64,000 bases of DNA from Rothia aerolata. GTDB lineage: Bacteria; Actinomycetota; Actinomycetes; Actinomycetales; Micrococcaceae. Shown one piece after another: positions 23,592 through 38,825 of the stretch; the first letter of the stretch is position 1; each line of letters begins with the position of its first letter. The translations under genes and the position numbers were made by a program. The DNA lies in NCBI RefSeq assembly GCF_014635585.1, contig NZ_BMDC01000001.1, positions 1,278,139-1,342,138 on the forward strand, read 5' to 3'. The notes under the pieces are model-generated. The model was not told the origin of the DNA. It ran no database searches and was given only the letters and a program-made list of their open reading frames with translations.

Positions 23592-24069
23592 CGACAGCAA
23601 CCCCGGCGATGTGCGAGGTACAGGGATCGCTCCGGGGCTTTCACTCTCTAATGTAATACTATGAACCCGGGGAGACAGGAAGGCATCAACCACAGACTTA
23701 GAGGAGTGGTTCTCCGAGCCACGACTCCATAGGTACCGAATGTATTGTCATCCAGACACTTACATATCAGCGGAACACTCATATAACCAAGAAACTCTTA
23801 GTTGCCATCGACATCCTCGAGATTATGCTAAGGAATGCAGTAAATAGAGCCCTCAGCCAAGATGATAGATACGGAAAATACTGGTTTCAGACCCTGCCCT
23901 ATCTCTGAGCAATCAAGCCAAGAAAAATAAGGAAGCCATGAAGAAGATGTTACGCATACACAGGGCTTACTCACTTCTACCTATTTCTTAGCATCGCTCA
24001 TCTCAGACAGTGCTGCCTTGAGGATTGGGTAAAATCCATCGGTAGATGAAAGGTTAGGAAATCACCTAG

Positions 24070-24687
24070 ATGCCAATTAATGAGGCCCATGCGCAAACTA
24101 TCTCTGCCTATTCTGAGAGGGCTCAAGAGTATGCCACAGTGCTAGGGCATCTTACAGCTACAAAAGAGCCTGACCGGAGGCTGGTTAGTTCTTGGTCTAG
24201 TTCCGTGGCGGGGAGCATCCTTGACCTTGGGTGCGGACCTGGGCACTGGACAAACTTCATCGCTTCGTTGGGCAGAAGTGTAAAAGGAATTGATCCTACG
24301 TCCCGTTTCATTGAAATTGCCTCAGAAAAATATCCTCGTGAGCAGTTCGAGGTGGGAACAATTGCAGATGAGAGGGGAAATGAATACGGCGGCATTCTTG
24401 CTTGGTACTCGCTCATACATTGTTCCCCTGACGAACTCCTACAGGAACTTAAAGATATTTGGTCAGTTCTTTCTGAGGGCGGTACCCTTCTGCTTGGATA
24501 TTTTCGAGGAAGCTCCCTAGAAGCCTTTAACCACGCGATTGCCCCAGCCTGGTACTGGCCGGACAGTTTTATCACCGAGGTTCTTAAACAGGTAGGGTTC
24601 CATATCCTTTATCAAGAGCATCGAGCTGACCTGGATGCTCGTCCACATGGGGCAATAGTTGCCGCTAAAACAGAAACAAGTCTGTGA
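24070..24687 (+). CDS. class I SAM-dependent methyltransferase
   Basis: A 205-residue single-domain methyltransferase with motif I ILDLGCGPGHWTNFIASLG, the acidic loop VKGIDPTSRFIEIA, motif II GGILAWYSLIHCSPDELLQELKDIW in part, and LSEGGTLLLGYFRGS after strand 5. The pattern matches small-molecule methyltransferases of the UbiE/TehB type. Codon use and base composition are more AT-rich than the core genes to the left, suggesting acquired DNA. It stands alone; substrate unknown. Confidence 0.82.
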   Translation: MPINEAHAQTISAYSERAQEYATVLGHLTATKEPDRRLVSSWSSSVAGSILDLGCGPGHWTNFIASLGRSVKGIDPTSRFIEIASEKYPREQFEVGTIADERGNEYGGILAWYSLIHCSPDELLQELKDIWSVLSEGGTLLLGYFRGSSLEAFNHAIAPAWYWPDSFITEVLKQVGFHILYQEHRADLDARPHGAIVAAKTETSL

Positions 24688-24801
24688 AAGGTACAAGTGA
24701 GGCCCCCCGAGTGGCCACTTTTATACCGAAAATCGGAGGAAAACGGTCTAAAAATGGCCCCTCGGCAATCAAAGTAACCCGTGCAGTTGCCCCTGTTTCA
24801 T

Positions 24802-24868
24802 CGAGTCGCCGCTTCAGCGACATTTCGCCGGTACCGTACCGGCGAAATGCAACTGAAACGGCGACTCG
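24802..24868. repeat. imperfect 67-bp palindrome
   Basis: Outer arms CGAGTCGCCG and CGGCGACTCG, and inner arms ATTTCGCCGGTAC and GTACCGGCGAAAT, with mismatched bases between. It lies in the 780-base gene-free stretch 24688-25467, which otherwise contains no recognisable gene. It may be a mobile-element end or terminator. Confidence 0.55.
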
Positions 24869-25467
24869 GTGTGCTTGTCCTTTTTTGAATCTGCACACAG
24901 GTTGTTAGAAGACGCTTTTCTGCCGCTTTCTCGGGTGACACGCCCGGGAGGGGACACACTTTTCTGCCTATAACCCTCAAAGCCTAGAGTCCTACAGTGT
25001 CCAAATATCTCTCGGGACTTACCTATACCGGCGCTCGCTACCAGTAGCACTATTGCAACAAGTAGCGAACGCGGCGGGTGGTTTGGTGAGAAGAAAGCAA
25101 GTGTCGGAAGAAGCTCTATCCCCCGGGTTTCACTAGTTATTTAGGCTGTGGATTCTCCAGACTACTGGCTGAGTAGCTACCTGCCTTGCTTAGGTTAAGT
25201 GCCTAAATGCACCTCCCTGATAATGCGCCTAGAAGTTTGCCACTTTATATGCTGCTGAGCGTGGATTATAGCCCATCCAAGAGTTCTAGGATTGCAGGCT
25301 ACTGGGCCTCTACATCCTCATAGGGTTCACCATGGTCTACGAATCTCGGCAACCATCTACGTAAAATATGTGGTGGGTACACACTATCTAGTGTGAGCTG
25401 AGCAAAGAGGTAGACCTGGCTTCTAAATTGCTACCTCTCCCGTATTAGATAATCAGAAAGAGCAACC

Positions 25468-25626
25468 ATGTCAGATAAGAAATCAACTCCAGAAAAGCAA
25501 ATCCAGACAAGAGAATCTCTCACAGGTAGCGGCCACTTGGTCTACGATGTAAAGCCTGGGATTAGCAATGATATTGCGAACATGATCAACTCACATGGTA
25601 AGCCCCAGAACGAGAAGGAAAAATGA
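25468..25626 (+). CDS. small hypothetical protein, 52 aa
   Basis: Reads MSDKKSTPEKQIQTRESLTG through to KPQNEKEK and stop. It is hydrophilic and lysine-rich with no signal or membrane segment. Its stop overlaps the ATG of the DUF6338-type gene as ATGA, so the two are translationally coupled, which is the main reason to believe it. I recognise no family. Confidence 0.6.
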   Translation: MSDKKSTPEKQIQTRESLTGSGHLVYDVKPGISNDIANMINSHGKPQNEKEK

Positions 25627-26246
25627 TTCTCGGCTCAGTAGCAAGCCTCATTCTGTTTGCGTTTTTGGTAGTTCCCGGCGGTGCTTGGAGATTCATACGG
25701 AATAGACATGTAGCACCGGTGAAAGAGTCTGCCCTTACAGAGTTCTCTAGAATTGCTTTCTACTCAGTTATATTTTTAGTTATCGCCGCTTTAATTTGCG
25801 GGTGGTTCTGGGTTAGGTTCTTTCAAGAGCTCCCGATAGATGGCTATCTCGACAAGTACGCGTGGTTGCATCTTGGGTTTCTTACGACTGTTCATGTGCT
25901 ATTAGCAACCGCTATAAGTTGCATAACCGCTTACGTTTACTTCAAAGACAAGGCAACCTTTACTAGGTATTCTGCCCTGGATTGGGTGTTTGTTGAGCAG
26001 AAGCCACAGGGCACCCGACCTACTGTGGTACTAAAACTATCCGACGGCTCAACAGCAATAGGTTCACTACATTATTATGACGTGGGCCCTGAAACAACGG
26101 ACAAAACTGTTGTACTTGCTCCTCCATATCTCATTAAGCGAAGCGATGAAGACGAAGGAACAAAATTTTCAGATGGTTACTTTTTAGTTTCCTTTGGAAA
26201 AATTGAAAGCTGGCGGATCGGCTTTACGAACGTAGAAGTCAAATGA
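25623..26246 (+). CDS. DUF6338-like membrane protein
   Basis: A 207-residue protein. Three hydrophobic segments occupy the first 110 residues (LASLILFAFLVVPGGAWRF begins inside the first; AFYSVIFLVIAALICGWFW; LTTVHVLLATAISCITAYVYF). A soluble part follows, including VVLKLSDGSTAIGSLHYYD and GYFLVSFGKIESW. The layout and opening match actinobacterial DUF6338 proteins, whose function is unknown but which turn up in accessory regions. It is coupled to the small gene before it. Confidence 0.68.
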   Translation: MILGSVASLILFAFLVVPGGAWRFIRNRHVAPVKESALTEFSRIAFYSVIFLVIAALICGWFWVRFFQELPIDGYLDKYAWLHLGFLTTVHVLLATAISCITAYVYFKDKATFTRYSALDWVFVEQKPQGTRPTVVLKLSDGSTAIGSLHYYDVGPETTDKTVVLAPPYLIKRSDEDEGTKFSDGYFLVSFGKIESWRIGFTNVEVK

Positions 26247-26709
26247 CTCTCATTGCTTCTCAGATGCCGGCAAAACAACAACCGACACAGTAGAAAGCCA
26301 AGGTATTCGAACCGTTCTGGCCCAGTTACATTTAGTTGCCCCAGGCAAACACCGGAAACTTCTTGGAGAAGTAAGCACCGAGTTCACTCCAACTAAGACC
26401 TTTGTCAGTGGGGCCTACCTCATTACGGCAAACCGCGCATTGCCTCCTGAACATGAAGAAAAGCTAAATTATCCTTCCTTTGTAGAGCTTGGAGCGAACG
26501 GTCATAAAGGCAATCACAGGCTTGCGGCTCTATTGCCCTGGGGTGCTGCGCTTAGCGCGTTGCCGCGCCCAGGAAAGAAGATCGAGATTGTTTGGCGTAG
26601 CGACACTGAGCTAAAGAGGGAAGCGGCTGAGTTCAAGGCACTTCGTGAGAACATGCGTATAGTTCCAGGCCGTGAGTATGAGGTACTCGAGTACTGGGCA
26701 ACGTCATAG
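26236..26709 (+). pseudogene. open frame without a proper start, probable gene remnant
   Basis: An open frame from just after a stop at 26233 to 26709, with no ATG or GTG; the only conventional alternative is TTG at 26440. The reading runs through VLAQLHLVAPGKHRKLLGEV, FVSGAYLITANRALPPEHEE and IEIVWRSDTELKREAAEF, which looks like real protein rather than chance. I do not recognise it. It is best read as a 5'-truncated gene, or a short TTG-started one of 89 residues. A terminator follows. Confidence 0.45.
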
Positions 26710-26745
26710 CTAAATTATTGCTTCTTGGCATACTCTTCAAGCTAA

Positions 26746-26785
26746 AGCTGGTAGCCGTGGAAAATTCGGCTGCCAGCTCTTTTTG
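26746..26785 (+). terminator. rho-independent terminator
   Basis: Stem AGCTGGTAGCCG and CGGCTGCCAGCT (one G-U pair) with a 9-base loop, followed by CTTTTTG. It follows the gene remnant ending at 26709. Confidence 0.8.
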
Positions 26786-26859
26786 TATTCCGAGAGAGTA
26801 GCAAAGAACCTTTCGGAGGTCTAATTCTCACGGTGGCTTGTGCTGGTTGGTTGCGCTCG

Positions 26860-26881
26860 TGTTGTCAAATTGTTGTCAAAT
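26860..26881. repeat. tandem 11-bp direct repeat near att copy 1
   Basis: TGTTGTCAAAT occurs twice in perfect tandem, 70 bp before the first tRNA-Lys att core. A different 11-bp tandem repeat sits at the equivalent place before att copy 2 (35477). Arm-type integrase binding sites are a plausible reading. Confidence 0.55.
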
Positions 26882-26903
26882 GACCGTTTCTAGAAAAGTA
26901 AAA

Positions 26904-26941
26904 CCCCGCTGGTTCCCTACAAACAAAGGGAACCAGCGGGG
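26904..26941. terminator. terminator hairpin beside att copy 1
   Basis: Perfect 15-bp stem CCCCGCTGGTTCCCT and AGGGAACCAGCGGGG with an 8-base loop, 9 bp from the att core. On the minus strand this is where the terminator for a tRNA ending at the core would lie, matching the arrangement at the intact tRNA-Lys. Confidence 0.85.
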
Positions 26942-26950
26942 TTATAAGAT

Positions 26951-26986
26951 GTGCGCCCTGTGGGGCTCGAACCCACGACCCACGGA
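26951..26986 (-). other. att site copy 1 (3' end of tRNA-Lys)
   Basis: These 36 bases are identical to the 3' part of tRNA-Lys at 45526-45561, and to 35568-35603. With this copy the match to the tRNA extends two bases on each side (40 in all). No tRNA 5' half is attached. It is the far boundary of the stacked elements inserted at tRNA-Lys. Confidence 0.88.
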
Positions 26987-27129
26987 TTCTAAAATACAGG
27001 TTTCATTCAGTGGGCGTTCAGGTTCATTTATCGCCACTGACTAGGGGTAATTCACCCAATTAGTAACCTAGATTGGGCATGGCCTCGTGACATCCCTAAT
27101 CATGGGACATCAAGGTTGGTAGTTTCCGA

Positions 27130-27708
27130 TTACTTCTTGTCTCTATGCGATTCGCTTTCATGAGCAATGTTGTAGGAGCTATGGAACAAGGCGGAGTATA
27201 CCAACCCATGTCTCCGCTCGAAATAGCGCGCAATCAACGCAAATATACCCATATGGATTACACTGGGAATTGACCCAATTCTTAGATGAGTAAGGCCGAA
27301 CCCTGTACTTTCGATGAGTCGTGAGGTATATCCGCCGTCGGTTCTCCAGATAATTTCTTCTGCGGCTGCGACCGTTATAGTTTGTGCAAGCTGTACTTTT
27401 GACAGGGAGCGGAAATGGTACTGAGGCACCCGTCGTGCTAACACGAAAACGCTGAGACTGTGCCACGCCAAACCAGCGCCAATGGCCATCAAGCTGCAAC
27501 TCTTTCCCCCTTTCCATAGTAAGGGGAGGCTGTGGCATCGCAGCACTTCTTCACAGAGGGATATTCCAGCAATAATTGCTGTTGGGATGTCGTGATACCA
27601 CCCCGCGGAGGGGCGGAACTGTTTGGGCCATTGTTTCCGAGCTCGAGTTAGAAGTTCAGGTCCTTTGAATGTCCACGCCACATGAACGAACTTGGACAGA
27701 AAGGTCAT
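27130..27708 (-). CDS. CPBP/CaaX-like membrane protease of the azole-peptide cluster (PznE-like)
   Basis: A 192-residue membrane protein with the glutamic protease motif AAAEEIIWR (EExxxR) at about residue 115 and the later HSSYNIAHE, plus several hydrophobic segments. In plantazolicin-type clusters a protease of this family removes the leader peptide. Here the expected cut is between Ala31 and Arg32 of the precursor. It is the last gene of the operon, and its ATG overlaps the dehydrogenase stop as ATGA. Leader cleavage is inferred from position and family. Confidence 0.8.
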   Translation of the reverse strand: MTFLSKFVHVAWTFKGPELLTRARKQWPKQFRPSAGWYHDIPTAIIAGISLCEEVLRCHSLPLLWKGGKSCSLMAIGAGLAWHSLSVFVLARRVPQYHFRSLSKVQLAQTITVAAAEEIIWRTDGGYTSRLIESTGFGLTHLRIGSIPSVIHMGIFALIARYFERRHGLVYSALFHSSYNIAHESESHRDKK

Positions 27709-28538
27709 GTCTCAGATCCTAAGAGCACCACGTACAGGCTTGCGTCATCCACGCCGTTATGGTCGGAAAGAATCGAATTCACCTCACTGTCGATGAATCC
27801 ACCGAATACTCGAGATTGAATGTTGATGCTTGTAGCCACTGTGATCAGGTTCTGAGCAACGTGACCTGATTCCATCAGGCTGAAACGCAGAGCTCGCTGG
27901 GAGTATTTAAACCTGCTACGCCAGAAAGTAGCGCTGATTATTATGAAGGCCGACGCGTCCTGCGCTACCTCCGGCAACAAGAGGGCCTCGCCAAGCGAGT
28001 CGAGGTCAACATTACTTCGAATGTGCGCGAGCCCCTTTCTGTAAGGGTCGAAGTGGTGAAGGTCTCCTGCATCTAGGGTCTCAACGTTGCGAGACACGAG
28101 ATAAAGATCAAGCGGGTATAAAGCCCCACCTGAAGGCACATTTCTGCGTGTTTGGTGCCCATTATCGACAGGATAGGCTCCGTAGGAATGATGCAGGATT
28201 TGGTGAATCGAGTTCAGCGACAGTTTGCCTCCTCCGAATTGGGGGCATGAACGTCGTGATCGAAGTAATGAGTCCAGACCTCTCGGAAGCGGCTCAGGTT
28301 CGCCTAGTTCGGTGAAGGGACGCGAGGTGTAGCGTCTTGACGCTCGTCCACTCATCTTCTGAAGTTCTGGCGATTGCAGCAGCAGAGGGATGCCGGGTGT
28401 TTCCCAGGCAAGGCCGTCCCTAGTCAGTTTTGACGCTTCAAAGTAGTCCTCGCTGGGGTCGGATACTTCCGGTACGCCAGTGTTGTAAACGATTTCTCGA
28501 AGGTTGGCGCTGTGGCTTGCTTCGGCTGCGGATGACAA
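27705..28538 (-). CDS. SagB-type FMN azoline dehydrogenase (PznB-like)
   Basis: A 277-residue nitroreductase-fold enzyme that oxidises azolines to azoles. It contains RRNVPSGGALYPLDLYLVSR and KYSQRALRFSLMESGHVAQN, the flavin and active-site segments of McbC/SagB-type dehydrogenases, and a closing GVDDASLYVVLLG. The start is a TTG at 28538, supported by a perfect AAGGAGG seven bases upstream. It lies 11 bp after the YcaO gene and overlaps the protease gene by 4 bp. Confidence 0.9.
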   Translation of the reverse strand: MSSAAEASHSANLREIVYNTGVPEVSDPSEDYFEASKLTRDGLAWETPGIPLLLQSPELQKMSGRASRRYTSRPFTELGEPEPLPRGLDSLLRSRRSCPQFGGGKLSLNSIHQILHHSYGAYPVDNGHQTRRNVPSGGALYPLDLYLVSRNVETLDAGDLHHFDPYRKGLAHIRSNVDLDSLGEALLLPEVAQDASAFIIISATFWRSRFKYSQRALRFSLMESGHVAQNLITVATSINIQSRVFGGFIDSEVNSILSDHNGVDDASLYVVLLGSET

Positions 28539-28549
28539 GAATTTCCTCC

Positions 28550-29944
28550 TTATGGGAATGGGTGGGGAAGAGGGTTGAAATCTTCAAAACTGAGATCCTT
28601 AGAGCGAGCGCCGAGTTCGCGGGCGCGAGTTCGGAGACGTTGGCTTCCGAGGAACCGGCGGTGGAAACCAACATCCAGCATTTGCAGCTGCGGGCTAAAG
28701 ACCTTAAAAACCGCACCGCCTGCTTCGCGTACATCTGGGCTCGTGAGGTCTCTGGCGAACACATCGATCCCTTGTGTGTTCAAAGCCGATACTAACGTGG
28801 CGATCTCTTCATTTGGGCTGTCACCGGCGAAACTTCCGCCAGCAGATACATCAGTTCGTTCATCTGAAGAGATGAGGAACTTCACTCGGTCGCGTGCCTT
28901 CGCATTTGCATAGAAGCGAATGTGATCGTCGAAATCTCTGATGGAGGCTTTCATGTCACGAAGGTCCGGGTCAAGGGAATTTCCATCCCTCTGTTCCGCT
29001 TTAACCCAGTTCCTTGTCTGCAAGCACTCGATCGCTGCGTCTTTAGCAGCGGCGAGCAGTGTGGGGCCTGCGGCAGCACCCAGAGCAACGGGTGCGTGAT
29101 CCGTGTGTGGATTGATAGCTACTGCCAATACAACCGGGATCCTCGAGACGCTAGAGAGATCGACCAGATACACATCAACACCTGAGGGTTTAATGTAGCG
29201 GCACATGAACTTGGAAAGCTCAGGTTGCGACTCAATGTCGATGAGTGGCATTGTGAGCCGTGAGTGCCAGACGATCATGAACGCATCCCGTTCAATCAGC
29301 TCATAAAGACCGCCAAGAATAGCTTCCGCAGGCGTAGAATGGAAGGCTAACCCGCTACTGGTTGCGTAACCCACAGCTGATTGTTCATGATGCGGGTCCG
29401 TCGGATATAGATACAGCATCTGAGAAGGCACCCATACCGTTTTTCCGGTGGAAAGGTCCTGCATAGCAGACCAGTTTAGCTCCCTATCGTGCGTTAATGG
29501 ACGATATTCGAAACTCGTATCCTCGAACTGGCGGGCATGAAAGGGACTCCACACGTCTGGGTGTACGCCAGGCGTTGAGTCCTTACTCAGGGCCGAGTAG
29601 CTAGTCCGTCGAAGACTTTCCCACGGTACCCATGCACCACTGTAGCGTTCAACGCATTCACCGATGGCAGCTAGGTATGTGCCTGTCTCTGAGATCGCAC
29701 CACCGCCATTGAATTTATTGCTCGTCGAGCCTATCAGATATTCTCCGTTGGCCGTTTCCGAACCAATGGCATAGCAGTATGAGTCATCAATGTCATGTAC
29801 TTTGTCGAACACACGACTGACGATGCCCACTCGATCGGAAACCAGTAGGCGGGCTCGTTTCATTCCATCTTCTAAGCTTGACCAGCGATTCCCAGACGTC
29901 AGTTCAGTGTAGGCTGGTCGCGAAAATTCTGCTGATGCGGCCAT
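28550..29944 (-). CDS. YcaO cyclodehydratase (PznD-like), azoline-forming
   Basis: A 464-residue ATP-dependent enzyme that converts Cys, Ser and Thr of the precursor core to azolines. Conserved ATP/Mg sites appear as AAIGECVERYSGAW and GGLYELIERDAFMIVWHSR, and later as AAAKDAAIECLQTRNWV. The protein ends NPLPHPFP, the proline-rich C-terminus (PxPxP) diagnostic of azoline-forming YcaO proteins. I chose the ATG at 29944, with AGGAGTG just upstream and only one base after the C-protein stop. A longer reading overlaps that gene. Confidence 0.95.
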   Translation of the reverse strand: MAASAEFSRPAYTELTSGNRWSSLEDGMKRARLLVSDRVGIVSRVFDKVHDIDDSYCYAIGSETANGEYLIGSTSNKFNGGGAISETGTYLAAIGECVERYSGAWVPWESLRRTSYSALSKDSTPGVHPDVWSPFHARQFEDTSFEYRPLTHDRELNWSAMQDLSTGKTVWVPSQMLYLYPTDPHHEQSAVGYATSSGLAFHSTPAEAILGGLYELIERDAFMIVWHSRLTMPLIDIESQPELSKFMCRYIKPSGVDVYLVDLSSVSRIPVVLAVAINPHTDHAPVALGAAAGPTLLAAAKDAAIECLQTRNWVKAEQRDGNSLDPDLRDMKASIRDFDDHIRFYANAKARDRVKFLISSDERTDVSAGGSFAGDSPNEEIATLVSALNTQGIDVFARDLTSPDVREAGGAVFKVFSPQLQMLDVGFHRRFLGSQRLRTRARELGARSKDLSFEDFNPLPHPFP

Positions 29945-29945
29945 T

Positions 29946-30917
29946 TCACTCCTCATGAAACCAAATTTGTGGATAACCTGTCCCGGAAGCAGGTGAACAT
30001 TGAGGACATCGAGGAACACGCAGCACTCGGTGATTGGCTAATTCAAACCCTTCTAGCCCGTATTTCACTTCGACGAAACCACCGACCGGTGCTTGGCCTT
30101 GAGCTCCGTCGAGAGCTATGTGGGTGAGCATTGCATCGGTGAGCATCGAAATCATCATTGATGTCATCGCTGGCTGGCTGTCGAAACGATCATGCCTTGG
30201 TATGGCTGACTGGCCTTTTCGTTGGATGTCAGCAAGTACCGGTTCTCGTTCGACACTGCCCTCTCGCAGTCGGAGGCATTTGTAGCAGGCGGACTGATTG
30301 GGGTAGAACCAAGGGCCAACCCTGAACCTGCCGTTGCGGGTTGGTGTCAGTGGCGTCCAAACGCGAATATCAGAGTTCAGTGCAATTTTGTTCGCCTCGT
30401 CGAGCAGTGGGTCGTGTTCATCTGCGGCAACGACTACCATCAGGTCGGCTGAGCTGTGTTTCGGTAATTGTTGTACGACTGTCGGTTCAGCGATGGGGTA
30501 GTCTCTCATTGCTGCTGTCAAAGTACTCACTGTGGAGGAGCTATGCGGGTCCACGATGAGGATTTCTGCTGTTTCTAAACGGTGTGCAATGTCTTCTAGA
30601 GGAACGAGTCGTCCACTTCTGTTAGCTAATGAAACTATTGTATCCGGCCAAGGGGTGCGTTCAGATGGGATAAGAACTTCAGTTTCTGAAAGAATTTCAA
30701 ATGCTGCTTGAAGTCGTTCAATGTCTCTAGGCTCATACTCGTCATTGTTTTCTGGAATGGCGAGCTCCTCGGTGGTTGAGAGCACCTCAGAGATAAAAGG
30801 CCATAGGGCCTCATCGGAGAGACTATATGTGTTTGACGCGGCTTCTATAACAATCTGGTTGCCGTCGCGTGATACCCGCAGGTCTGGGTTAACTTGGTAC
30901 CTCTGAGTTTCAGCCAT
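29946..30917 (-). CDS. E1-like partner protein of the YcaO enzyme (PznC-like)
   Basis: A 323-residue protein of the ThiF/E1-like 'C protein' family, which binds the leader peptide and presents it to YcaO. The N-terminal 80 residues fit a RiPP recognition element (YQVNPDLRVSRDGNQIVIEA). Later come GPWFYPNQSACYKCLRLREG and RCPQCSPASGTGYP, giving two CxxC pairs that likely hold zinc. A strong AGGAAAG site precedes the ATG. The stop abuts the YcaO start. Catalytic help in heterocycle formation is known for the family. Confidence 0.87.
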   Translation of the reverse strand: MAETQRYQVNPDLRVSRDGNQIVIEAASNTYSLSDEALWPFISEVLSTTEELAIPENNDEYEPRDIERLQAAFEILSETEVLIPSERTPWPDTIVSLANRSGRLVPLEDIAHRLETAEILIVDPHSSSTVSTLTAAMRDYPIAEPTVVQQLPKHSSADLMVVVAADEHDPLLDEANKIALNSDIRVWTPLTPTRNGRFRVGPWFYPNQSACYKCLRLREGSVEREPVLADIQRKGQSAIPRHDRFDSQPAMTSMMISMLTDAMLTHIALDGAQGQAPVGGFVEVKYGLEGFELANHRVLRVPRCPQCSPASGTGYPQIWFHEE

Positions 30918-30926
30918 CTTTCCTCA

Positions 30927-31631
30927 CTACTTCTTTCTGCTTACGTACATTCGGAAGTCTTCCAATGCTTCCTCTCCGTTAGGGTTATCGATTGCGACCT
31001 CTGACACGGCGAGTTGCTGAGCGGATACGATACGGTTGCTGAGCTCTGCGCCCATCCCAGCAGTAACCATGACGTCGTATAGGTCCGCTGGTTTAACCCT
31101 CTCAGACCTAATGTTCTCATCGAACTCGGAGCTCAAGATCTTGGTGATGGAATCTGCAGGCACTGTCGAGGGCGTAACAGTAGATTGAAAATTAGCTCCG
31201 GCAGCCGTTGCATTAACGGCTGCCTGCACCATTTCAGTTCTCTGTTTACGACTGATCAGGCTTATGAATTGTGCTGGTTCTACAAGACAAAACACTTTGA
31301 ATTCGATGGCCTTGTTGATGTCTTCCTCCCAGTCTTCTACTGAACGGGGGAGGGTAAGAACTCTAGTTTCCCCAAACTGGCGCAATCTAGACTCGATTGT
31401 GTCGAGCCAGGCAAGGTAATCTGCAGCACGATCGGAAATGTCTTTGTTAATAACCGCTGGGCGAATCAACAATCGTTTTGTTGCATTCGCAGTAGTCTCG
31501 AGTTGCTCAACCAATCCCTCACGGTTCAAGGTGACAGCATCAACCACAACTGGTGGATCGACAATGCCACACTTATCCAGTATTTGAGCGATATGACTGC
31601 GAGCCCCAAGATACGTGGTTGCCACGTTCAT
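30927..31631 (-). CDS. PznJ-like protein of unknown role
   Basis: A 234-residue soluble, mixed alpha/beta protein with no motif I recognise. Segments include RLLIRPAVINKDISDRAADY and FKVFCLVEPAQFISLISRKQ. Its place directly before the C protein matches pznJ, which precedes pznC in the plantazolicin operon and whose function is unknown. The assignment is therefore by position. Its ATG overlaps the methyltransferase stop (GGAGGCATGA), with the ribosome site inside the upstream gene. Confidence 0.65.
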   Translation of the reverse strand: MNVATTYLGARSHIAQILDKCGIVDPPVVVDAVTLNREGLVEQLETTANATKRLLIRPAVINKDISDRAADYLAWLDTIESRLRQFGETRVLTLPRSVEDWEEDINKAIEFKVFCLVEPAQFISLISRKQRTEMVQAAVNATAAGANFQSTVTPSTVPADSITKILSSEFDENIRSERVKPADLYDVMVTAGMGAELSNRIVSAQQLAVSEVAIDNPNGEEALEDFRMYVSRKK

Positions 31632-32386
31632 GCCTCCTGGTAGTTTATGAAAAATAGGTTGCCGTAGTCCGAGGCGGTGTCGATTGTGGGGACGATCGTT
31701 TCTCGGTTATCGGTAAATGTTGAAATCTCGGCACCTGGTAGTGCCTTTCGGCAAAGGACTTTGAGATCCTCAGGTGTAAGCGAAGCGTTGTGCTGGTCGA
31801 TGAGAAATTGGTTGAGCTCGTTACTTGCGGCGTATTCAATACGCGAACCTGTTCTCAGAAGGTCAATGATGAGTATTCGACCACCAAGGCTGAGTCTTTT
31901 GCGTAAATCAATACACCGACGAATGGGATCGTCCCAAAGCGCGAGATTCAACGAGGACACAATAATGTCAGCGTGGGAAACTGAAGGCGGGATGTTTTCG
32001 ACACCAGCACGTATAAACTTCACCTTCGCGGATAACGCACTATTACCAGTATGTATGCCTGAATTATCTGGGTCGACTCCGATGTATTCTTCAAAGTCTT
32101 CCAATTGGCTGGCAAGCAAACCTTCGCCACAACCAACATCGATAATGCGAGGGGGAGTATTCATCCCAAGCATGTGTATTTGCTGGGCAACAAAACTGGA
32201 ATATCGGGGCTCCACGTCCGCGTCATGGTTCCGAGCAACAGGGACACGTTCAGGATCGCGGTACCATCGGCGAGCTCTGTGTTTGACCTCGTCAGCTACC
32301 AGCTGTGTCGGTTCCAAGTTAGTTGAATAGGTCACTCTATTCATCCGCAGGTTGTCGAGGAGAGGATTCTTCTGACGTAGATACAT
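31628..32386 (-). CDS. SAM methyltransferase, PznL-like N-terminal arginine dimethylase
   Basis: A 252-residue class I methyltransferase with motif I PRIIDVGCGEGLLASQLEDF, acidic loop EYIGVDPDN, and DIIVSSLNLALWDDP. In plantazolicin PznL places two methyl groups on the alpha-amine of the N-terminal Arg. The precursor here also presents Arg as first core residue, so the same reaction is expected. The gene lies before the J-like gene rather than at the operon's end as in Bacillus. Function is inferred from context and fold. Confidence 0.8.
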   Translation of the reverse strand: MYLRQKNPLLDNLRMNRVTYSTNLEPTQLVADEVKHRARRWYRDPERVPVARNHDADVEPRYSSFVAQQIHMLGMNTPPRIIDVGCGEGLLASQLEDFEEYIGVDPDNSGIHTGNSALSAKVKFIRAGVENIPPSVSHADIIVSSLNLALWDDPIRRCIDLRKRLSLGGRILIIDLLRTGSRIEYAASNELNQFLIDQHNASLTPEDLKVLCRKALPGAEISTFTDNRETIVPTIDTASDYGNLFFINYQEA

Positions 32387-32412
32387 TCTGAAGTTTAGCC
32401 GTTTTCATACTT

Positions 32413-32934
32413 TTACCGCGTTTCTTCTTTTTTCTCTCGATGCGGGCCAATAAACCACCACAACACCACGATAAATATGGCGACGATTATCCAATAAATC
32501 AACCAGAATGCACCTTGCAAACTCGTGATGGCGATACCAATAGTGAGCAGGACAACACTGATCAGCGAGGCCCAGCAGGCTCGTTTCCACGTTGTCATTG
32601 CTGATTCCGCAGTGCGGTTATCTGGACTGTTGGTGTTGTTCTCGTGTGTGCCGAATCGGCGAGCAAATCGCACGTCCAATGCGCGGATGATTGTCGGCCC
32701 TAGCGCGATTGAATATCCGATATATAAAGCAGAAAGGCCGTGAATAAAATTCGAAGATTTGCCTGAGCTTAAGTCGATATAAGTTAGGGTCAGTAGCAGG
32801 AGATCGACGATTGGAGTGGCAATGAGTAGTGCTGCACCGATGCGCGGAGCCTTCAATGCATATCGTGTCAACAGTCCGGCCAATAGCAGAATCCAGAATA
32901 AAACCTCGGCCACAACGATAGCGATGAGTATCAA
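32413..32934 (-). CDS. small polytopic membrane protein, candidate immunity or export factor
   Basis: A 173-residue protein with about five hydrophobic helices: IAIVVAEVLFWILLLAGLLT, GAALLIATPIVDLLLLTLTY, HGLSALYIGYSIALGPTII, then after a polar loop ASLISVVLLTIGIAITSL and FWLIYWIIVAIFIVVLWWF. It starts at TTG 32934 behind GGAGG. It is the first gene after the precursor and the only membrane protein besides the protease, so self-protection is the natural guess. I do not recognise the family. Confidence 0.65.
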   Translation of the reverse strand: MILIAIVVAEVLFWILLLAGLLTRYALKAPRIGAALLIATPIVDLLLLTLTYIDLSSGKSSNFIHGLSALYIGYSIALGPTIIRALDVRFARRFGTHENNTNSPDNRTAESAMTTWKRACWASLISVVLLTIGIAITSLQGAFWLIYWIIVAIFIVVLWWFIGPHREKKEETR

Positions 32935-32980
32935 TCTACGTGCCTCCAGAAGTTGGGTTCTTCACGCCGAAATCCTAAGG

Positions 32981-33032
32981 GAAGCCGCTGGGCACTTGCT
33001 CCTCTCAGTGATGGCAAGTGCCCAGCGGCTTC
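32981..33032 (-). terminator. strong hairpin between precursor and enzyme genes
   Basis: Perfect 19-bp stem (GAAGCCGCTGGGCACTTGC at 32981-32999 with its complement at 33014-33032) and a 14-base loop, starting 9 bases after the precursor stop. There is no T-run on the minus strand. It probably works as a partial attenuator or as an mRNA end-protector, letting the precursor outnumber its enzymes. Confidence 0.75.
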
Positions 33033-33041
33033 TTTGGTTGG

Positions 33042-33182
33042 TTAACCGCCGCAGCAGCAGCAACAAGGTACTGTGGTGCAGGAGCAACGAGCAGCGGTAG
33101 GCTCGAATGCCTGAACTTCGGAAACAATCTTTGAGGAACCAGTTGAAACTGCGGGAGGCAGCTTATTGATTAGTGTGGACAC
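33042..33182 (-). CDS. plantazolicin-type azole peptide precursor
   Basis: A 46-residue peptide. The leader (residues 1-31) ends AFEPTAA and the core is RCSCTTVPCCCCCGG. From memory, plantazolicin's precursor has FEPMAA before its core RCTCTTIISSSSTF, so the cleavage site, the first Arg and the CxCTT block all agree. There are ten cyclisable residues: C33, S34, C35, T36, T37, then C40-C44 after Val-Pro. The start is GTG at 33182 behind AGAGAGAAG. It is the first gene of an operon with dedicated YcaO, C-protein, dehydrogenase, methyltransferase and protease genes. Confidence 0.93.
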   Translation of the reverse strand: MSTLINKLPPAVSTGSSKIVSEVQAFEPTAARCSCTTVPCCCCCGG

Positions 33183-33690: not shown

Positions 33691-34034
33691 CCCCTTCTCC
33701 GCTTGCCCAAGCTCCGAAAAACGCCCGAACCAAAACCTGACACAAGCTCCCCGCTATCTACACACAGGCGCTCATCTTTTGATCTCGATCTATGATCGTT
33801 GGGCGCCCAAGTTCATGATAAATCTGCGCAGATGAAATTACTGGCAGCAACTACGTGCGTACTGGGTGAGTTTTTAGACCATGACCCGCACTTTCCCTAC
33901 AGGTTTAGTCGAAACCCTTTTTCCATGGGTAAAGCTCCTACAGCTTATCGCTGGTACAAGATTGCAGTATTGATATGTACTGGGTTCAGTCCACACCTTC
34001 CACCCACACCCCACCGGAAGGAATAATAAAGACC

Positions 34035-34352
34035 ATGCCCACCAAATACCCCCAAGAATTCAAAGAACGAGCAGTACGACTCGTAGGCGACCGACTCAAC
34101 CACGCTGACGCTCCATCCATAACCGCGGCGATCAAAGACATCGCCCCTCGGCTAGGAATTTCCCACAACACCCTGGCCCGCTGGTGCAACACTGCTGCAC
34201 TGGACACCGGCAAAGAAATCAGTACTACTAGTGACGCGGCGGCCGAAATCAGACGCCTGAAACGAGAAAACGCGGAACTGCGTAGGACCAACGAGATTTT
34301 GAAAACCACCTCAGCTTTTTTCGCAGCGGAGCTCGACCGACCGGCCCGATGA
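34035..34352 (+). CDS. IS3-family transposase OrfA
   Basis: A 105-residue DNA-binding subunit: YPQEFKERAVRLVGDRL and ISHNTLARWCNTAAL form the helix-turn-helix, and AAAEIRRLKRENAELRRTNE is the leucine zipper. It overlaps orfB by 4 bases; a programmed frameshift would fuse the two into the active transposase, as usual for the family. The start at 34035 is the first ATG after the terminal repeat. Confidence 0.88.
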   Translation: MPTKYPQEFKERAVRLVGDRLNHADAPSITAAIKDIAPRLGISHNTLARWCNTAALDTGKEISTTSDAAAEIRRLKRENAELRRTNEILKTTSAFFAAELDRPAR

Positions 34353-35251
34353 TGATCCGATTCATCAACACTTATAAGGATCTTTTCGGGGTCGAGCCCA
34401 TATGCCGAGTCCTATCCGAGTATCTTGATGGTGGCTTCATTACGGCCAGCGGTTATTACCGCGCAATTGGCCGTGTCGCTTCAGCCAGATCACTATCCGA
34501 CCAGCTCCTCATTCCTGAACTGATCAGAATCCACCAGGAGAACTACGGAGTCTATGGCGTGCGCAAAATGTGGCAAGCGATGAGACGAGCAGGCTGGGCA
34601 GTCGGACGGGACCAGATCTACCGATTGATGCGTGCAGCTGGTCTCCAGGGTGTGCATCGGGGGCGTAAGCCTGTGACTACTAGGCCTGCCACTGTCTTGG
34701 ATCACCACCCTGATCTGGTCAACCGCCGTTTTACCGCTGATGCGCCGAACCGTCTGTGGGTCGCAGATTTCACCTATGTGCGTACTGCTGGAGGGTTTTG
34801 CTACACCGCGTTCATCACTGATGTGTTCAGCCGGAAAATTGTGGGCTGGGGCGTTTCCTCGACTATGCATACTCAGGGTATGCCGCTGATGGCTCTTAAG
34901 CAGGCTTTGTTTGAAGCCAGGCGTTCAGGGTCTGATTTGACGCAGGTGGTGCATCACTCAGACCGGGGCTCGCAGTATGTGGCTGAGGATTACACTCGTG
35001 AGCTGGTCCAGCTGGGTGTTCGGTTGTCCGTAGGATCTACTGGAGATTCATACGATAATGCCCTGGCTGAGTCGGTTAACGGTGCGTATAAGACTGAGCT
35101 TGTACGTGGCCGGTTCTTTGAATCTGTTGCTCAGTTGGAGGCTGCCACGGCGGGTTGGGTGTGTTGGTGGAATCGGCAGTGGTTGCATTCGGCTCTTGGT
35201 TATCGGGCTCCTCAGGAGGTGGTGGATGATGCTTTAGTTGCTGTTGTTTGA
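34349..35251 (+). CDS. IS3-family transposase OrfB (DDE integrase domain)
   Basis: A 300-residue catalytic subunit with the DDE residues in LWVADFTYVRT, HHSDRGSQYVAEDY and SYDNALAESVNGAYKTEL, and an N-terminal HTH_21 part (NYGVYGVRKMWQAMRRAGW). It appears intact, so the element may still be able to move. Confidence 0.92.
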   Translation: MMIRFINTYKDLFGVEPICRVLSEYLDGGFITASGYYRAIGRVASARSLSDQLLIPELIRIHQENYGVYGVRKMWQAMRRAGWAVGRDQIYRLMRAAGLQGVHRGRKPVTTRPATVLDHHPDLVNRRFTADAPNRLWVADFTYVRTAGGFCYTAFITDVFSRKIVGWGVSSTMHTQGMPLMALKQALFEARRSGSDLTQVVHHSDRGSQYVAEDYTRELVQLGVRLSVGSTGDSYDNALAESVNGAYKTELVRGRFFESVAQLEAATAGWVCWWNRQWLHSALGYRAPQEVVDDALVAVV

Positions 35252-35295
35252 TGTGTTAGTTTTTTGGGTGGTGGGTGTGACCGAAACCCAGTACA

Positions 35296-35476
35296 TATCA
35301 CTGTCGCGACCTATATTGCGAACTCTGAGAGCATATCTGCGGCCTCGTTGCAGTTGGGGCACTCGAGCGAGCGGATAACGGAACAGCACTACATCATGCG
35401 TGATGTTTTCGCCCCGGATATGTCGGCTCTGTTGCAGGCGTTCGGTAACCCTCAGCAAGCGGGTGTTGAGATTTGA
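35296..35476 (+). pseudogene. tyrosine integrase, C-terminal fragment
   Basis: Reads VATYIANSESISAASLQLGH then SSERITEQHYI and ends PQQAGVEI. LGHSS followed by the catalytic tyrosine in HYI is the C-terminal signature of phage/ICE-type tyrosine recombinases. Everything upstream has been replaced by the IS3 element. It points toward the att copy at 35568, the usual position for an island's own integrase. Confidence 0.85.
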
Positions 35477-35567: not shown

Positions 35568-35603
35568 GTGCGCCCTGTGGGGCTCGAACCCACGACCCAC
35601 GGA
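35568..35603 (-). other. att site copy 2 (3' end of tRNA-Lys)
   Basis: Thirty-six bases identical to 26951-26986 and to 45526-45561. It separates the azole-peptide island from the copper island, and the sequences on either side differ from both other copies. No tRNA 5' half is present. Confidence 0.88.
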
Positions 35604-35660: not shown

Positions 35661-36501
35661 GTGCTGTTGCAAAGTTGGGGCAGTAGGAAGAGCGACGTGA
35701 AATAATCACAGCCATGGGTATCTTCTCCTGTCGTCATTTCCCCCGTGACATCATTCTGTAGGCAGTGCGGTGATACTGCCGCTACGGGGTGAGCTATCGC
35801 GATCTGGAGGAAATGATGACTGAGCGGGGTATGCCGGTCAATCACACCACGATCTACCGCTGGGTCCAGAAATACGGCCCTAAGCTGGACAAGCAAACAC
35901 GGTGGTGCCGGCAGGTACCTGACTGGCAGGCCAGTTCCTGGCAGGTGGATGAGACCTATATCCGGGTCAGCGGCAGGTGGTGCTACCTCTATCGGGCAAT
36001 CACCGCCGGTGGCCAGACCCTGGACTTTTACCTCTCTCCGAAGCAGAACGCGGTCGCAGCGAAGCGTTTCCTGGCCGAGGCCCACAGATCCAATGCGTCA
36101 GCCGGGTATCCCAGAGTGATCAACACCGATAAAGCACCCTCCCTAGCCAGGGCAATCGCCGAGTTGAAGTCAGAGGGAATCTGCCCGCCAACAGTGGAAC
36201 ACCGGCAGGTGAAATACCTCAACAATATCCTGGAAGGCGACCATGGTCGGCTGAAGCGGATCCTCGGTCCGAAAGGCGCGTTTAAGAACCGGACATCTGC
36301 ATATCGGACGTTGAAAGGGATGGAGGCGATGCACTCATTGCGGAAAGGGCAAGGCACGATGTTTACCTACGGGCAACCGAACCCGGGCGCGGTGATCGCC
36401 AACCGGGTCTTCGAGACGGCCTGAGAACGCCCACACGCAGCGGTGATCAGGGAATAAGAAACTGAGTCTTCGCTGCTCTCCGCCCAACTTTGCAACAGCA
36501 C
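35661..36501 (+). mobile_element. IS6-family element (IS1628-like), defective
   Basis: An 841-bp element with terminal repeats GTGCTGTTGCAAAGTTGG and CCAACTTTGCAACAGCAC. The flanking bases (CGAATCA at left, CCGACGC at right) show no 8-bp target duplication, as expected if the copper segment arrived by cointegrate recombination. Elements of this group are common in Corynebacterium resistance plasmids. Confidence 0.85.
35714..36424 (+). pseudogene. IS6-family transposase with two Trp-to-stop changes
   Basis: Read from ATG 35714 the frame gives MGIFSCRHFPRDIIL, stop (TAG), AVR, stop (TGA), YCRYGVSYRDLEEM, and then 211 uninterrupted residues. Family members have Trp at both stop positions. The DDE catalytic part is intact: WQVDETYIRVSGRW, VINTDKAPSLARAI and the Glu in NNILEGDHGRLK. 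Full length would be 236 residues, normal for the family. Two nonsense changes just before the start of a usable internal frame make it a likely pseudogene. Confidence 0.82.
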
Positions 36502-36632
36502 CCGACGCACGAGGAAGCGAACGAGATCAGATCTGCAGCTGCCGCAGCCAGGATGCCGATCATCAGTAACCCGGTGGGGAAGAAGACGGTTTTCTGGTTA
36601 TCCCGGAAGACCACAACACCGAGGAAGGTCAT
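36502..36632 (-). pseudogene. truncated small membrane protein cut by the IS6 element
   Basis: A minus-strand frame starting at ATG 36632 reads MTFLGVVVFRDNQKTVFFPT then GLLMIGILAAAAADLISFAS, one hydrophobic helix, before running into the IS6 terminus. It lies directly downstream of the multicopper oxidase and may be a lost member of the copper operon. Family not recognised. Confidence 0.4.
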
Positions 36633-36696
36633 CGTGCTGCCCGGTGGGCGGTCTGCAGCAACTCTGCCCACCTGGGCACTCAACCCTGCTGTGGGG

Positions 36697-38178
36697 TTAC
36701 TCGTAGCGAAGCGAGCTGACCATCCCGGCTTCCATGTGATAGGCGTTATGGCAGTGAAATGCCCACTCACCGGGGTTCTCAGCGATCAGGTCGGCGATTA
36801 TGGTTTCACCCGGGCGGAGAAGGACGGTGTCCTTGCGTAGCCCGCCGCTGCCGGGCAGCGCCCACGTGTGGCCGTGGATGTGCATGGGATGGGGCATCAT
36901 GGTCCTGTTGCGCATGACCATCCGCAGGCGCTGGCCCTCCTGCACGGTCGCGGAGGAGGATTGGCCGTCGGTGAGAATGCTCCATTCATACGGCATCATC
37001 TGCCCGCCCAGGTCGATGCTGACTTCTCGGTCTGGTGTGCCCTCGGGCAAGAGTGCACGGTCTGCTGGCTTCAGGGAGGACAGAAGCAGTCCGGTGGACG
37101 ACAACTCGGGGAAGTCGACATCGGGGCGGGGGGCCTGACCGCCGGCGGTGCGGATGACAGCGAAGGCGCGGTCGTCCTTACCCACCGCCAAAGCCGTGAG
37201 CGGGAAGACGCCGTCGCCGAGGATGACCTCGACGTCGACACGCTCGCCCATGGACAGATAGATCGATTCGGTCTCCCAGGGCTGGACAGGGAAGCCGTCG
37301 GTGTGGGTGACGGTCATGCGGTGACCACCGAGGGCCACCTTGAAGATGGTGTCACCGCCGGAGTTGATAAACCGCAGGCGGGCCTTGTCGCCCGGGCGAG
37401 CCTTGAAGGTCCGGTGAGCACGGGGGATACGTCCGTTGATGAGGTAGTGCGGATACATCACATCGCCGGCATCCCCGCCAAGTACCTGATCCGGGGTGCC
37501 GTGCATCATCTGGTCGTGACCTCCCATTCCCATTCCCCCGTTATGGTCGCCCGAACCCATTCCGGTGAGCTTGTCGAGCTCATCGTCGGGAGTGCCCTGA
37601 ATGCCATCGACCCAGTCGTCGAGCACGATGGTCCACTCGACGTCCTGGTCCTCAGCGTCTTGCGGGTCACGGATAATCAGTGGGGCGTGGAGGCCGCGAT
37701 CAAGCTGCAGGCCGGTGTGGGAATGGTAGAAGTAGGTGCCACCGTGGGGGACTTCAAAAACATAGGAGAAAGACTCGCCAGGTTCAATGGGGTTCTGAGT
37801 CATGCCGGGCACACCGTCGGCTGCGTTGTGGAGTGCGATGCCATGCCAGTGGATGGAGGTACTCTCAGGCAGTTCATTGGTGATATCGACCTGGAGGACG
37901 TCGCCAGCGGTGGCCTCAATGGCCGCATCCCCGGTGTCAGAGACGTACCCCCATGTCTTGGCTTCGATGCCGCCGATATCCAGGGAGAGGGGCCGGGCGG
38001 TCAGTGTCCGGCGCACCGTCGGCTCACCGAGCGCAGTGGGGGTGGGAATGGGGCGAAGGGAGGGACCTGATCCCGAGGCAGCGGGTCCAGGGGCGCTGGT
38101 GCAGGCGGTCAGGGCCCCGGTGCCGGCGAGGACGAGCCCGCCGAGCAGAAACTGTCGTCGGGAAGACGCGTTTGTCAT
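36697..38178 (-). CDS. multicopper oxidase, Tat-exported lipoprotein
   Basis: A 493-residue cuprous oxidase, probably detoxifying Cu(I) outside the membrane like CueO. It has twin arginines at residues 7-8 (SSRRQFLLGGL) and a lipobox ending in C26 (ALTAC). All four copper-binding motifs are present: SIHWHG, FYHSHTG, HPMHIHGHTW and HCHNAYHMEAGM. A Met/His-rich loop (GMGSGDHNGGMGMGGHDQMM) near residue 205 may gather copper. It is followed by a truncated membrane gene and preceded by cueP on the same strand. Confidence 0.93.
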   Translation of the reverse strand: MTNASSRRQFLLGGLVLAGTGALTACTSAPGPAASGSGPSLRPIPTPTALGEPTVRRTLTARPLSLDIGGIEAKTWGYVSDTGDAAIEATAGDVLQVDITNELPESTSIHWHGIALHNAADGVPGMTQNPIEPGESFSYVFEVPHGGTYFYHSHTGLQLDRGLHAPLIIRDPQDAEDQDVEWTIVLDDWVDGIQGTPDDELDKLTGMGSGDHNGGMGMGGHDQMMHGTPDQVLGGDAGDVMYPHYLINGRIPRAHRTFKARPGDKARLRFINSGGDTIFKVALGGHRMTVTHTDGFPVQPWETESIYLSMGERVDVEVILGDGVFPLTALAVGKDDRAFAVIRTAGGQAPRPDVDFPELSSTGLLLSSLKPADRALLPEGTPDREVSIDLGGQMMPYEWSILTDGQSSSATVQEGQRLRMVMRNRTMMPHPMHIHGHTWALPGSGGLRKDTVLLRPGETIIADLIAENPGEWAFHCHNAYHMEAGMVSSLRYE

Positions 38179-38249
38179 GATTTAACCTTTCTTGGTGCAA
38201 GATTTCAGTGATACGGGAGACAGGTACAGGTGAGGACCCTGCTGAGCCA

Positions 38250-38825
38250 TCACGTCAGGCGCAGGTCTGTGACACAGGTGGCACCGTCGTCGGTGGTGGA
38301 AAACTCCGTGGTGCCGGTACGCCCCTGGTAGCTGACCTCAATCAGGCCGGTGGTATCATCAGGAAGCCAGAAGCCAATAAACCCATTGTCGAAGGTGGTT
38401 GTCGCCTCGTCCACCAGCACCTCACCGGTCGCCTCATCGGTGATCGTGACCTGGATATCCTCATTGTTGAGTTCCCCCAGGCAGGTCGTGAGGCTGTGGT
38501 AGAAGCAGTCGTGGGTGGAGGTGAGATAGGGTGCGATCGAGACATACGTCTGATTGTCGGGAAGATCGACCACGACTTCCTGGTCATCGCTCGAGAGCAG
38601 CAGTTCATCGGCACGCACTGAGGCGATCAGATCCGTGGGACGCTCAGTGACCTTCTGCCGGTCGAGGTGATCAATGATCTCCACCGCGTCCATGTCGGCC
38701 AGGCCATGGGTAGTCAGGAATGTATCCTGGGACACTGTCCCGTCGGCGGTGGGTTCCGGGTCGGCGGCCGAACACCCCGTGAGGGCGAGGGCAAGGGCGG
38801 CGGCTGCGATCGCTGCTCGTTTCAC
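38250..38825 (-). CDS. cueP: CueP-family copper-binding lipoprotein
   Basis: A 191-residue exported protein with lipobox LALTGC (C18). It matches CueP, a copper-binding protein of the cell envelope: conserved cysteines in HDCFYHSLTTCLGEL and near the end in DGATCVTDLRL, and the DLPDNQTYVSIAPYL segment. The start is GTG 38825 behind AAGGAG. It lies upstream of the multicopper oxidase gene on the same strand, across a 71-bp gap. Confidence 0.87.
   Translation of the reverse strand: MKRAAIAAAALALALTGCSAADPEPTADGTVSQDTFLTTHGLADMDAVEIIDHLDRQKVTERPTDLIASVRADELLLSSDDQEVVVDLPDNQTYVSIAPYLTSTHDCFYHSLTTCLGELNNEDIQVTITDEATGEVLVDEATTTFDNGFIGFWLPDDTTGLIEVSYQGRTGTTEFSTTDDGATCVTDLRLT

Follow-up and report, generated by a model that had tools for sequence, protein, structure and literature searches.

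The DNA analyzed here, called the window throughout, is a stretch of 64,000 nucleotides from Rothia aerolata (contig NZ_BMDC01000001.1, C1:1278139-1342138). Between positions 27130 and 33182 it carries eight uninterrupted genes, all on the minus strand, encoding a precursor peptide (A), a membrane protein, a methyltransferase, a J protein, a C protein, a YcaO cyclodehydratase (D), a SagB-family dehydrogenase (B) and a CPBP protease (E) (Table 1). Neighboring genes overlap by 4-11 bases or are separated by 9-26 bases, except for a gap of 107 bases between the precursor and membrane protein genes, which contains an RNA hairpin of 18 pairs. A first-pass annotation of this DNA had described eight same-strand genes with this tight spacing, and both the layout and its end coordinate for the precursor proved correct. 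GC content is low from ~24 to 36 kb of the window (~47-55% in steps of 2 kb vs ~60%). Judged from its genes, this is an intact cluster of the plantazolicin family, cysteine-rich branch. We read it as directing the synthesis of an azole peptide against competing Gram-positive bacteria and as the cargo of a module bounded by tRNA-Lys 3' ends, with a probability of roughly 0.85. The product, its activity and the excision of the module are predictions from sequence, which counts against this reading.

The precursor starts with a GTG codon at 33182, which is preceded by AAAGAGAGAAG, and its 46 residues end in ...FEPTAARCSCTTVPCCCCCGG. With the 54-residue frame of the precursor as query, the NCBI plantazolicin model TIGR04218 gave 77.4 bits (cut-off 45). 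The leader ends in ...EVQAFEPTAA and is followed by the predicted core RCSCTTVPCCCCCGG, whose pattern R-CSCTT-VP-CCCCC-GG includes five consecutive cysteines in the second block. According to an excerpt of PMC4603692, plantazolicin cores begin with Arg, followed by five heterocyclizable residues, two nonpolar residues and five to six more. The window peptide conforms to this rule, with an Arg-first core, five heterocyclizable residues, two nonpolar ones and five more, and its 46 residues agree with the short precursors (~45) of the family. Across 19 of 19 aligned precursors, the residues F, E, P and A of the FEPxxA motif are invariant. Two core types were found among them, one with a serine-rich second half (Bacillaceae, Auritidibacter) and a cysteine-rich one (Brevibacterium, Corynebacterium, Rhodococcus and the window). 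The product is likely a linear thiazole/oxazole peptide with two azole blocks and an N-terminal dimethyl-Arg, as predicted from the precursor. Its calculated [M+H]+ is 1323.24 with ten azoles and dimethyl-Arg, or 1325.26 with nine azoles and one azoline; the same calculation for the Bacillus core gives 1336.478.

In azole-peptide assembly, the C protein binds the leader, the YcaO protein cyclodehydrates and the SagB protein oxidizes azolines. The C, YcaO and SagB proteins of the window all scored above the cut-offs of thiazole/oxazole-modified microcin (TOMM) models, and a grouping with families unrelated to ribosomally synthesized and post-translationally modified peptides, which had been named as a refutation beforehand, did not occur. 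The C protein contains two CxxC pairs, CYKC at 211 and CPQC at 304, and the YcaO protein terminates in NPLPHPFP, in agreement with the PHPFP end noted earlier. Its start codon is uncertain: the longest frame has 489 residues and a database copy (P0005) 464, and we took the start at 29956, giving 468. The methyltransferase matched BpumL and BamL best among PDB chains (E 2e-15 to 1e-11); the six best of seven matches are BpumL/BamL-type entries, one group of which is titled only 'Methyltransferase domain family'. It thus appears to be of the plantazolicin-specific N-methyltransferase type, with a predicted substrate specificity. The protease is assigned less firmly than C, D and B, since it reached 19.9 bits against PF02517 (cut-off 22.4), a further point against our reading; its EEIIWR, FGLTH and HSSYN segments fit the CPBP motifs.

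For comparison with other loci, named genomes were scanned with an alignment of 23 YcaO proteins, and the best 80 of 410 confirmed relatives were kept. Brevibacterium aurantiacum ATCC 9175 (L032) carries all eight genes in the same order and strand arrangement, at identities of 52-89% to the window (A 89, membrane protein 65, methyltransferase and J 53 each, C 72, D 79, B 86, E 52%; a second comparison gave 87% for the matched part of A) and with 71-78% DNA identity in alignable pieces. A hairpin follows the precursor there as well, whereas the core differs (RCSCTTLPCCCCSGG). The Corynebacterium timonense precursor P0003 has a nearly identical leader and core (RCTCTTLPCCCCCGG, five Cys) but differs at two core residues and is 83% identical over the matched part. 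Neither the gene order nor the peptide type, both suggested earlier as possibly new, is therefore new. In two Rhodococcus loci, the precursor, membrane protein and methyltransferase genes lie on the strand opposite J-C-D-B. The Bacillus safensis locus L044 shares the J-C-D-B-E order, as the first-pass annotation had stated for Bacillus, along with the FEPxAARC site and the dimethyl-Arg methyltransferase family. It differs in its core (RCTCTTIISSSSTF, oxazole-rich in the second half), in having the precursor on the opposite strand and in placing the methyltransferase last. Its ABC transporter, ArsR-type regulator and pentapeptide-repeat gene, recognized upstream by eye, have no counterpart in the window module, so that the description of the cluster as complete holds for the eight intact genes but not for these three; their absence also weighs against our reading. 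An excerpt of PMC4603692 places the first identification of the cluster in B. amyloliquefaciens FZB42 and lists further clusters in Clavibacter, Brevibacterium, Corynebacterium, Nesterenkonia and Sorangium, in line with the earlier remark that the class is known from Clavibacter, Corynebacterium and Brevibacterium.

We considered whether the genes form another linear azole-containing peptide (LAP) or TOMM cluster that merely resembles the plantazolicin type. Six further genomes of the genus encode YcaO proteins, R. dentocariosa is reported, in an excerpt of PMC10668837, to hold an LAP cluster with YcaO and SagB proteins, and the D protein of the window is only ~39% identical to that of B. safensis. 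This explanation is nevertheless very improbable and already largely refuted by the TIGR04218 match with its FEPxAARC site, the methyltransferase nearest BpumL/BamL, the presence of J and the two-block core. The plantazolicin assignment made at first sight was thus borne out by the precursor model, the TOMM models, the methyltransferase and also the YcaO tree. In this tree of 32 proteins, the window falls into an eight-row clade including Brevibacterium (support 100/100), separate from a second clade of six rows from Bacillaceae, Auritidibacter and two metagenome-assembled genomes (MAGs).

The Auritidibacter core type also occurs in G049, a genome of the window's own family, and the window cluster is therefore not that family's version. 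A comparison of genus genomes, proposed earlier, was carried out: the precursor model exceeded its cut-off in 1 of 35 genomes of the genus, 3 of 395 of the family and 1 of 394 of the class, with the window's own genome counted each time, so that within the genus it was found only there. Because D groups with Brevibacterium rather than Auritidibacter and the precursor occurs in a single genus genome, the cluster was most likely acquired horizontally and is rare in the genus, as far as these comparisons indicate. Five further genomes remained under the TIGR04218 cut-off and were not counted; two of these matches lie in 437-residue frames, and L139 showed no precursor-like sequence. L137 (G643) and L138 (G582) each contain two tandem precursor-like open reading frames (ORFs) with FEPVxA and Ser/Cys-rich cores lacking a leading Arg, and since we read them as real relatives, the model undercounts distant ones. 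A plasmid origin was set aside: the only plasmid record similar to the cluster DNA aligned over just 51 bases, and the best-listed plasmid-borne YcaO protein is 37% identical. Among the matches listed in the literature searches, none reported a Rothia plantazolicin, and none, judging by its title or the opening of its abstract, dealt with tRNA-Lys islands in Rothia; one paper (PMC6891442) contains both the words plantazolicin and Rothia. We claim no first for Rothia, because the LAP cluster that the excerpt of PMC10668837 describes for R. dentocariosa could itself be of the plantazolicin type.

Several other precursor-like sequences were observed. A near-identical precursor (P0001) carries the name Burkholderia multivorans, but its contigs do not exceed 566 bases, and it is probably a contamination of that assembly. 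G195 (L133/L136), from the window's family, contains two tandem plantazolicin-type precursor ORFs with cores RCTTTTLISTTCTWA and RCTTTTLISTTSCWG. In a Propionibacteriaceae MAG (L045 6898-7056) and in a Rhodococcus (L046 8341-8508), YcaO genes have small ORFs nearby whose tails are very rich in Cys (AAAKCCCSSKFCCCTSKICCCSCCCW and the like); these apparently belong to another azole-peptide family.

None of 15 members of the J family was matched by a Pfam model, and the fold of the window protein was identified as that of NmrA and atypical short-chain dehydrogenases/reductases (SDRs). The nucleotide-binding loop of SDRs has the motif GxxGxxG. Within the first 40 residues, GxxGxx[GA] was retained in only 2 of the 15 aligned rows. 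J would accordingly be an SDR relative whose nucleotide loop is damaged, acting as a scaffold rather than as a redox enzyme. Two observations speak against this: Foldseek superposes it only loosely on QOR2 (TM 0.49, rmsd 8.9), and both rows keeping the loop are from Rhodococcus, with the motif ending in A. An alignment to three Bacillaceae J proteins gave 15-17% identity and a common YxGxR start, too distant for tblastn; in B. safensis L044, the membrane protein had no tblastn match and J had none at E 1e-3. The SDR-like fold nonetheless offers a testable idea for a family gene without a Pfam match.

The membrane protein matched no Pfam or NCBIfam family over cut-off, and PADLOC models likewise gave no family. 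In B. aurantiacum (65% identity) and both Rhodococcus loci (45%), its counterpart directly follows the precursor. It is a candidate immunity or export protein, a role that is a guess, and a fold assignment was dropped as the structure model was unusable (pLDDT 51.6); both points weaken the overall interpretation. The hairpin has a counterpart in Brevibacterium (z -5.7), in which 18 of 18 pairs are kept, three of them through compensatory changes on both sides. Conservation at this level was equaled in 58 of 500 shuffles in a comparison of two sequences, and the Rhodococcus loci gave no support (z -0.7); both points count against the hairpin. The hairpin is likely an attenuator or mRNA stabilizer.

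The genes could also be silent or decaying, that is, intact but unexpressed or without export, with no peptide released. The module has no transporter or regulator, an insertion sequence (IS) lies 0.8 kb upstream of the precursor, and promoter-like sites in the region number five against 7.6 expected, one of them (33279-33250) 68 bases before the precursor; terminator-like sites are likewise not above chance. All eight frames are open, however, and B. aurantiacum keeps the same eight-gene order, with no ABC transporter recognized by eye among the ORFs listed there (2.2 kb upstream, to the contig end); a TRAP-like permease lies ~3 kb downstream of that cluster. A silent cluster is thus unlikely, and we favor a functional one.

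In such a functional pathway, the C protein would bind the 46-residue precursor through its leader and, together with D, convert Cys, Ser and Thr of the core to azolines at the expense of ATP. The B protein would oxidize these to up to ten azoles, five on each side of Val-Pro, with the second block made up of five thiazoles. E would then cut after Ala-Ala, and the methyltransferase would dimethylate the freed Arg. J may hold the enzymes or the peptide together without redox chemistry, the hairpin could raise the level of precursor over enzyme mRNA, and the membrane protein might confer immunity or export.

The family and, from Brevibacterium, the gene order are known; new here are the J fold, the recurring hairpin and the genomic setting, a tRNA-Lys cassette array. 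The latter is the more interesting part, of which the first-pass annotation had only a 'mobile island', a proposal now supported by the copies of the tRNA-Lys end, the genus genomes with several copies and the recurrence of modules in relatives. The last 36 bp of the tRNA-Lys gene are identical in all three copies in the window, and the 43 bp at 26946-26988 equal those at 45520-45562. These ends delimit an 8.6-kb plantazolicin module and a 10-kb copper module. No outer copy of the tRNA end was found for a third module, even when degenerate copies with up to 12 substitutions were allowed (23.2-26.9 kb). The small methyltransferase it encodes (24070-24687), part of a module common to several relatives, gave a weak match to mad2 of PADLOC (E 1e-8). 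The IS3-type element of the plantazolicin module has a 96.7% identical copy in G018. An SdhA-like protein of the window is, among named matches, 89% identical to 'uncultured Rothia sp.', followed by Kocuria at 78%, which agrees with the Rothia-like host proposed from the letters. No tRNA-Lys end (at most five mismatches) was present in the 16.7-kb B. aurantiacum locus.

Table 1. Features of the plantazolicin-type cluster and the surrounding tRNA-Lys modules in the window.
Feature	Position	Strand	Basis
Precursor, 46 aa, GTG start	33042..33182	-	TIGR04218; relatives in B. aurantiacum, C. timonense
18-pair RNA hairpin directly 3' of precursor, without T run	32981..33032	-	z -6.6 for window
Membrane protein, 173 aa, ~4 hydrophobic segments	32413..32934	-	hydrophobicity; conserved position in relatives
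S-adenosylmethionine (SAM) methyltransferase, predicted N-terminal Arg dimethylation	31628..32386	-	best solved matches BpumL, BamL
J protein, NmrA/atypical-SDR fold, eroded nucleotide loop	30927..31631	-	
C protein, two CxxC pairs	29946..30917	-	TIGR03882 49 bits, cut-off 36.9
D protein, YcaO cyclodehydratase, ends PHPFP	28550..29956	-	TIGR03604 298 bits, cut-off 219; YcaO tree
B protein, SagB-family azoline dehydrogenase	27705..28538	-	TIGR03605 109 bits, cut-off 78.4
E protein, CPBP/Rce1-like membrane protease, predicted leader peptidase	27130..27708	-	motifs; 52% to Brevibacterium counterpart
tRNA-Lys 3' end copy (att-like), outer end of plantazolicin module	26951..26986	-	
Second tRNA-Lys 3' end copy, plantazolicin/copper module boundary	35568..35603	-	
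Intact tRNA-Lys (TTT), array anchor	45525..45598	-	
Terminator-like hairpin just outside the 26951 tRNA-end copy	26902..26943	-	
IS3-type element inside plantazolicin module	33971..35301	+	HTH_Tnp_1, rve
IS6/IS240-type element, 19-bp inverted ends, in copper module	35661..36501	+	
Copper module: multicopper oxidase, CueP, response regulator, histidine kinase, P-type ATPase, DUF305	36526..44693	.	
Third, outermost module: methyltransferase 24070-24687, DUF6338 25623-26246	23594..26988	+	

A 33-base motif from the tRNA-Lys end was present, at up to two mismatches, in 34 of 35 genus genomes, and 16 of these 34 contained two to five copies. With at most one mismatch, several copies were found in 15 of 27 matched genus genomes vs 2 of 81 matched genomes sampled elsewhere in the family (Fisher 2e-9). 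As controls, the tRNA-Arg end was multi-copy in 1 of 31 genomes, with copies on two contigs, and the tRNA-Val end in 4 of 32, in all four with copies 114-129 bases apart, which we took for neighboring tRNA genes. In G373, one of only two sampled family genomes outside the genus with a second copy, the two motif copies lie 4.7 kb apart on one strand (C1:1006954, 1011661), possibly a similar island.

The stretches at tRNA-Lys were examined in 20 of the 34 relatives (L112-L131): 14 of the 15 multi-copy genomes and 6 of the remaining 19. A copper module was found there in 5 of the 20 (one cut by a contig end), and the methyltransferase gene of the third module likewise in five (one a fragment), both in varied arrangements. 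The main copper stretch is 98.0-98.6% identical at the DNA level over at least 8 kb in four relatives, and a piece in G003 is 98.8% identical over its remaining 1.1 kb; shorter pieces near the tRNA reach 95-97%. Next to the tRNA, the window's UPF0014 and 46410 proteins share 40-61% identity with their counterparts in relatives. In G002 and G034, a MOSC gene (40-42% to that of the window) lies 0.7 and 0.2 kb from the tRNA, respectively, which we read as an empty site. The module of G011, with ArsR, SBF-transporter and low-molecular-weight-phosphatase family genes, was read as arsenic resistance. Two further modules were observed: in G016 (L123 574-900), two tRNA-end copies 289 bases apart enclose nothing but both termini of the methyltransferase module, which looks like a deletion of its cargo, and in G028, a 1-kb module at tRNA-Lys encodes a protein (L119 1201-1866) similar to PD-T4-5 of PADLOC (E 1e-12), possibly a defense cargo.

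The five consecutive cysteines and the adjoining copper module raise the question of whether the peptide is instead a metal-binding or signaling compound involved in copper handling. The copper module, however, occurs at the same site in 5 of the 20 relatives examined, none with the precursor, and no copper genes were recognized by eye among the ORFs listed around the Brevibacterium cluster. For these reasons the two modules appear to share a dock rather than a pathway, and a metal-related peptide is improbable; we retain the antibiotic reading.

How the modules reached the tRNA bears on their class. In the window's own genome, PF00589 integrases were found only at C1:12774 and C1:555970, more than 700 kb from the window and likely Xer proteins; serine recombinases were not searched for. 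In a Pfam scan, neither the eight cluster genes nor the two frames of the IS3-type element matched a conjugation or relaxase family, although no search was aimed at relaxases. Exact direct repeats of 36 bp resembling attL and attR, without an integrase (PF00589) of its own, are the hallmarks of cis-mobilizable elements, and the modules are best read, on this analysis, as decayed or integrase-less elements of this kind. The plantazolicin module was likely placed at tRNA-Lys by the integrase of another element. In G007, a bounded element of 5.6 kb encodes a 404-residue integrase at most 0.2 kb from the tRNA; in G026, an integrase lies 1.7 kb from a tRNA-end copy, and in G022, a fragment lies 0.3 kb from the tRNA. 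The nearest integrases in G019 and G004 are ~12 and ~16 kb away.

The tRNA-end copies could alternatively stem from repeated homologous recombination or duplication. This would fit the lack of PF00589 in or near the module in its own genome and its presence within 5 kb of a copy, on the same contig, in only 2 of the 16 multi-copy genomes (G007, G026). The repeats in the window, however, stop at the tRNA 3' end and lie on the 3' side of the tRNA, integrase genes or a fragment occur near the tRNA or a copy in G007, G026 and G022, and the two control tRNAs have no such arrays. Recombination or duplication is therefore unlikely, and we prefer insertion by integrases. A precedent exists in the tandem ssrA islands of Dehalococcoides and in cis-mobilizable elements, for which excerpts of PMC3146451 and PMC5704250 describe stacked modules bounded by copies of an RNA-gene end, many without integration genes; decayed or integrase-less modules are proposed for some of the Dehalococcoides islands (PMC3146451), and cis-mobilizable elements are described in the part available of a review on integrative and mobilizable elements (PMC5704250). 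As far as these excerpts go, the Dehalococcoides islands use ssrA and a serine recombinase, whereas here the target is tRNA-Lys, with tyrosine integrases in relatives, the host is a Rothia-like genus and the cargo is small: copper, arsenic-like and antibiotic modules.

A broader picture, which we offer tentatively and consider somewhat doubtful as a whole, is that the tRNA-Lys 3' end is a genus-wide cassette dock. Copper, arsenic-like, methyltransferase and antibiotic modules without integrases would be stacked there head to tail and swapped between species by the integrases of other elements, the antibiotic being a plantazolicin with five joined thiazoles in its second half, whose cluster would replace the ABC transporter by a new small membrane protein and use a dead SDR for assembly. 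Several points count against the module part of our main reading. Related genomes enter the multi-copy counts as if they were independent, and some of the copies are at the ends of contigs or spread over different contigs (G015, G021). The identity of the copper module was compared only with poorly conserved tRNA neighbors; as the SdhA-like protein is 90% identical in G002, UPF0014 and 46410 are poor yardsticks. The plantazolicin module is at tRNA-Lys in one genome only, so that its own exchange between species is hypothetical.

The cluster adds Rothia to the predicted producers of plantazolicins and supplies an exact mass by which the peptide could be detected. The array at tRNA-Lys would illustrate the way in which an antibiotic cluster that is rare came into the genus, as one cassette among others for metal resistance, and it provides a clean system for the spread of integrase-less islands. 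If the dock exists as outlined, antibiotic production would be a plug-in trait in Rothia-like bacteria.

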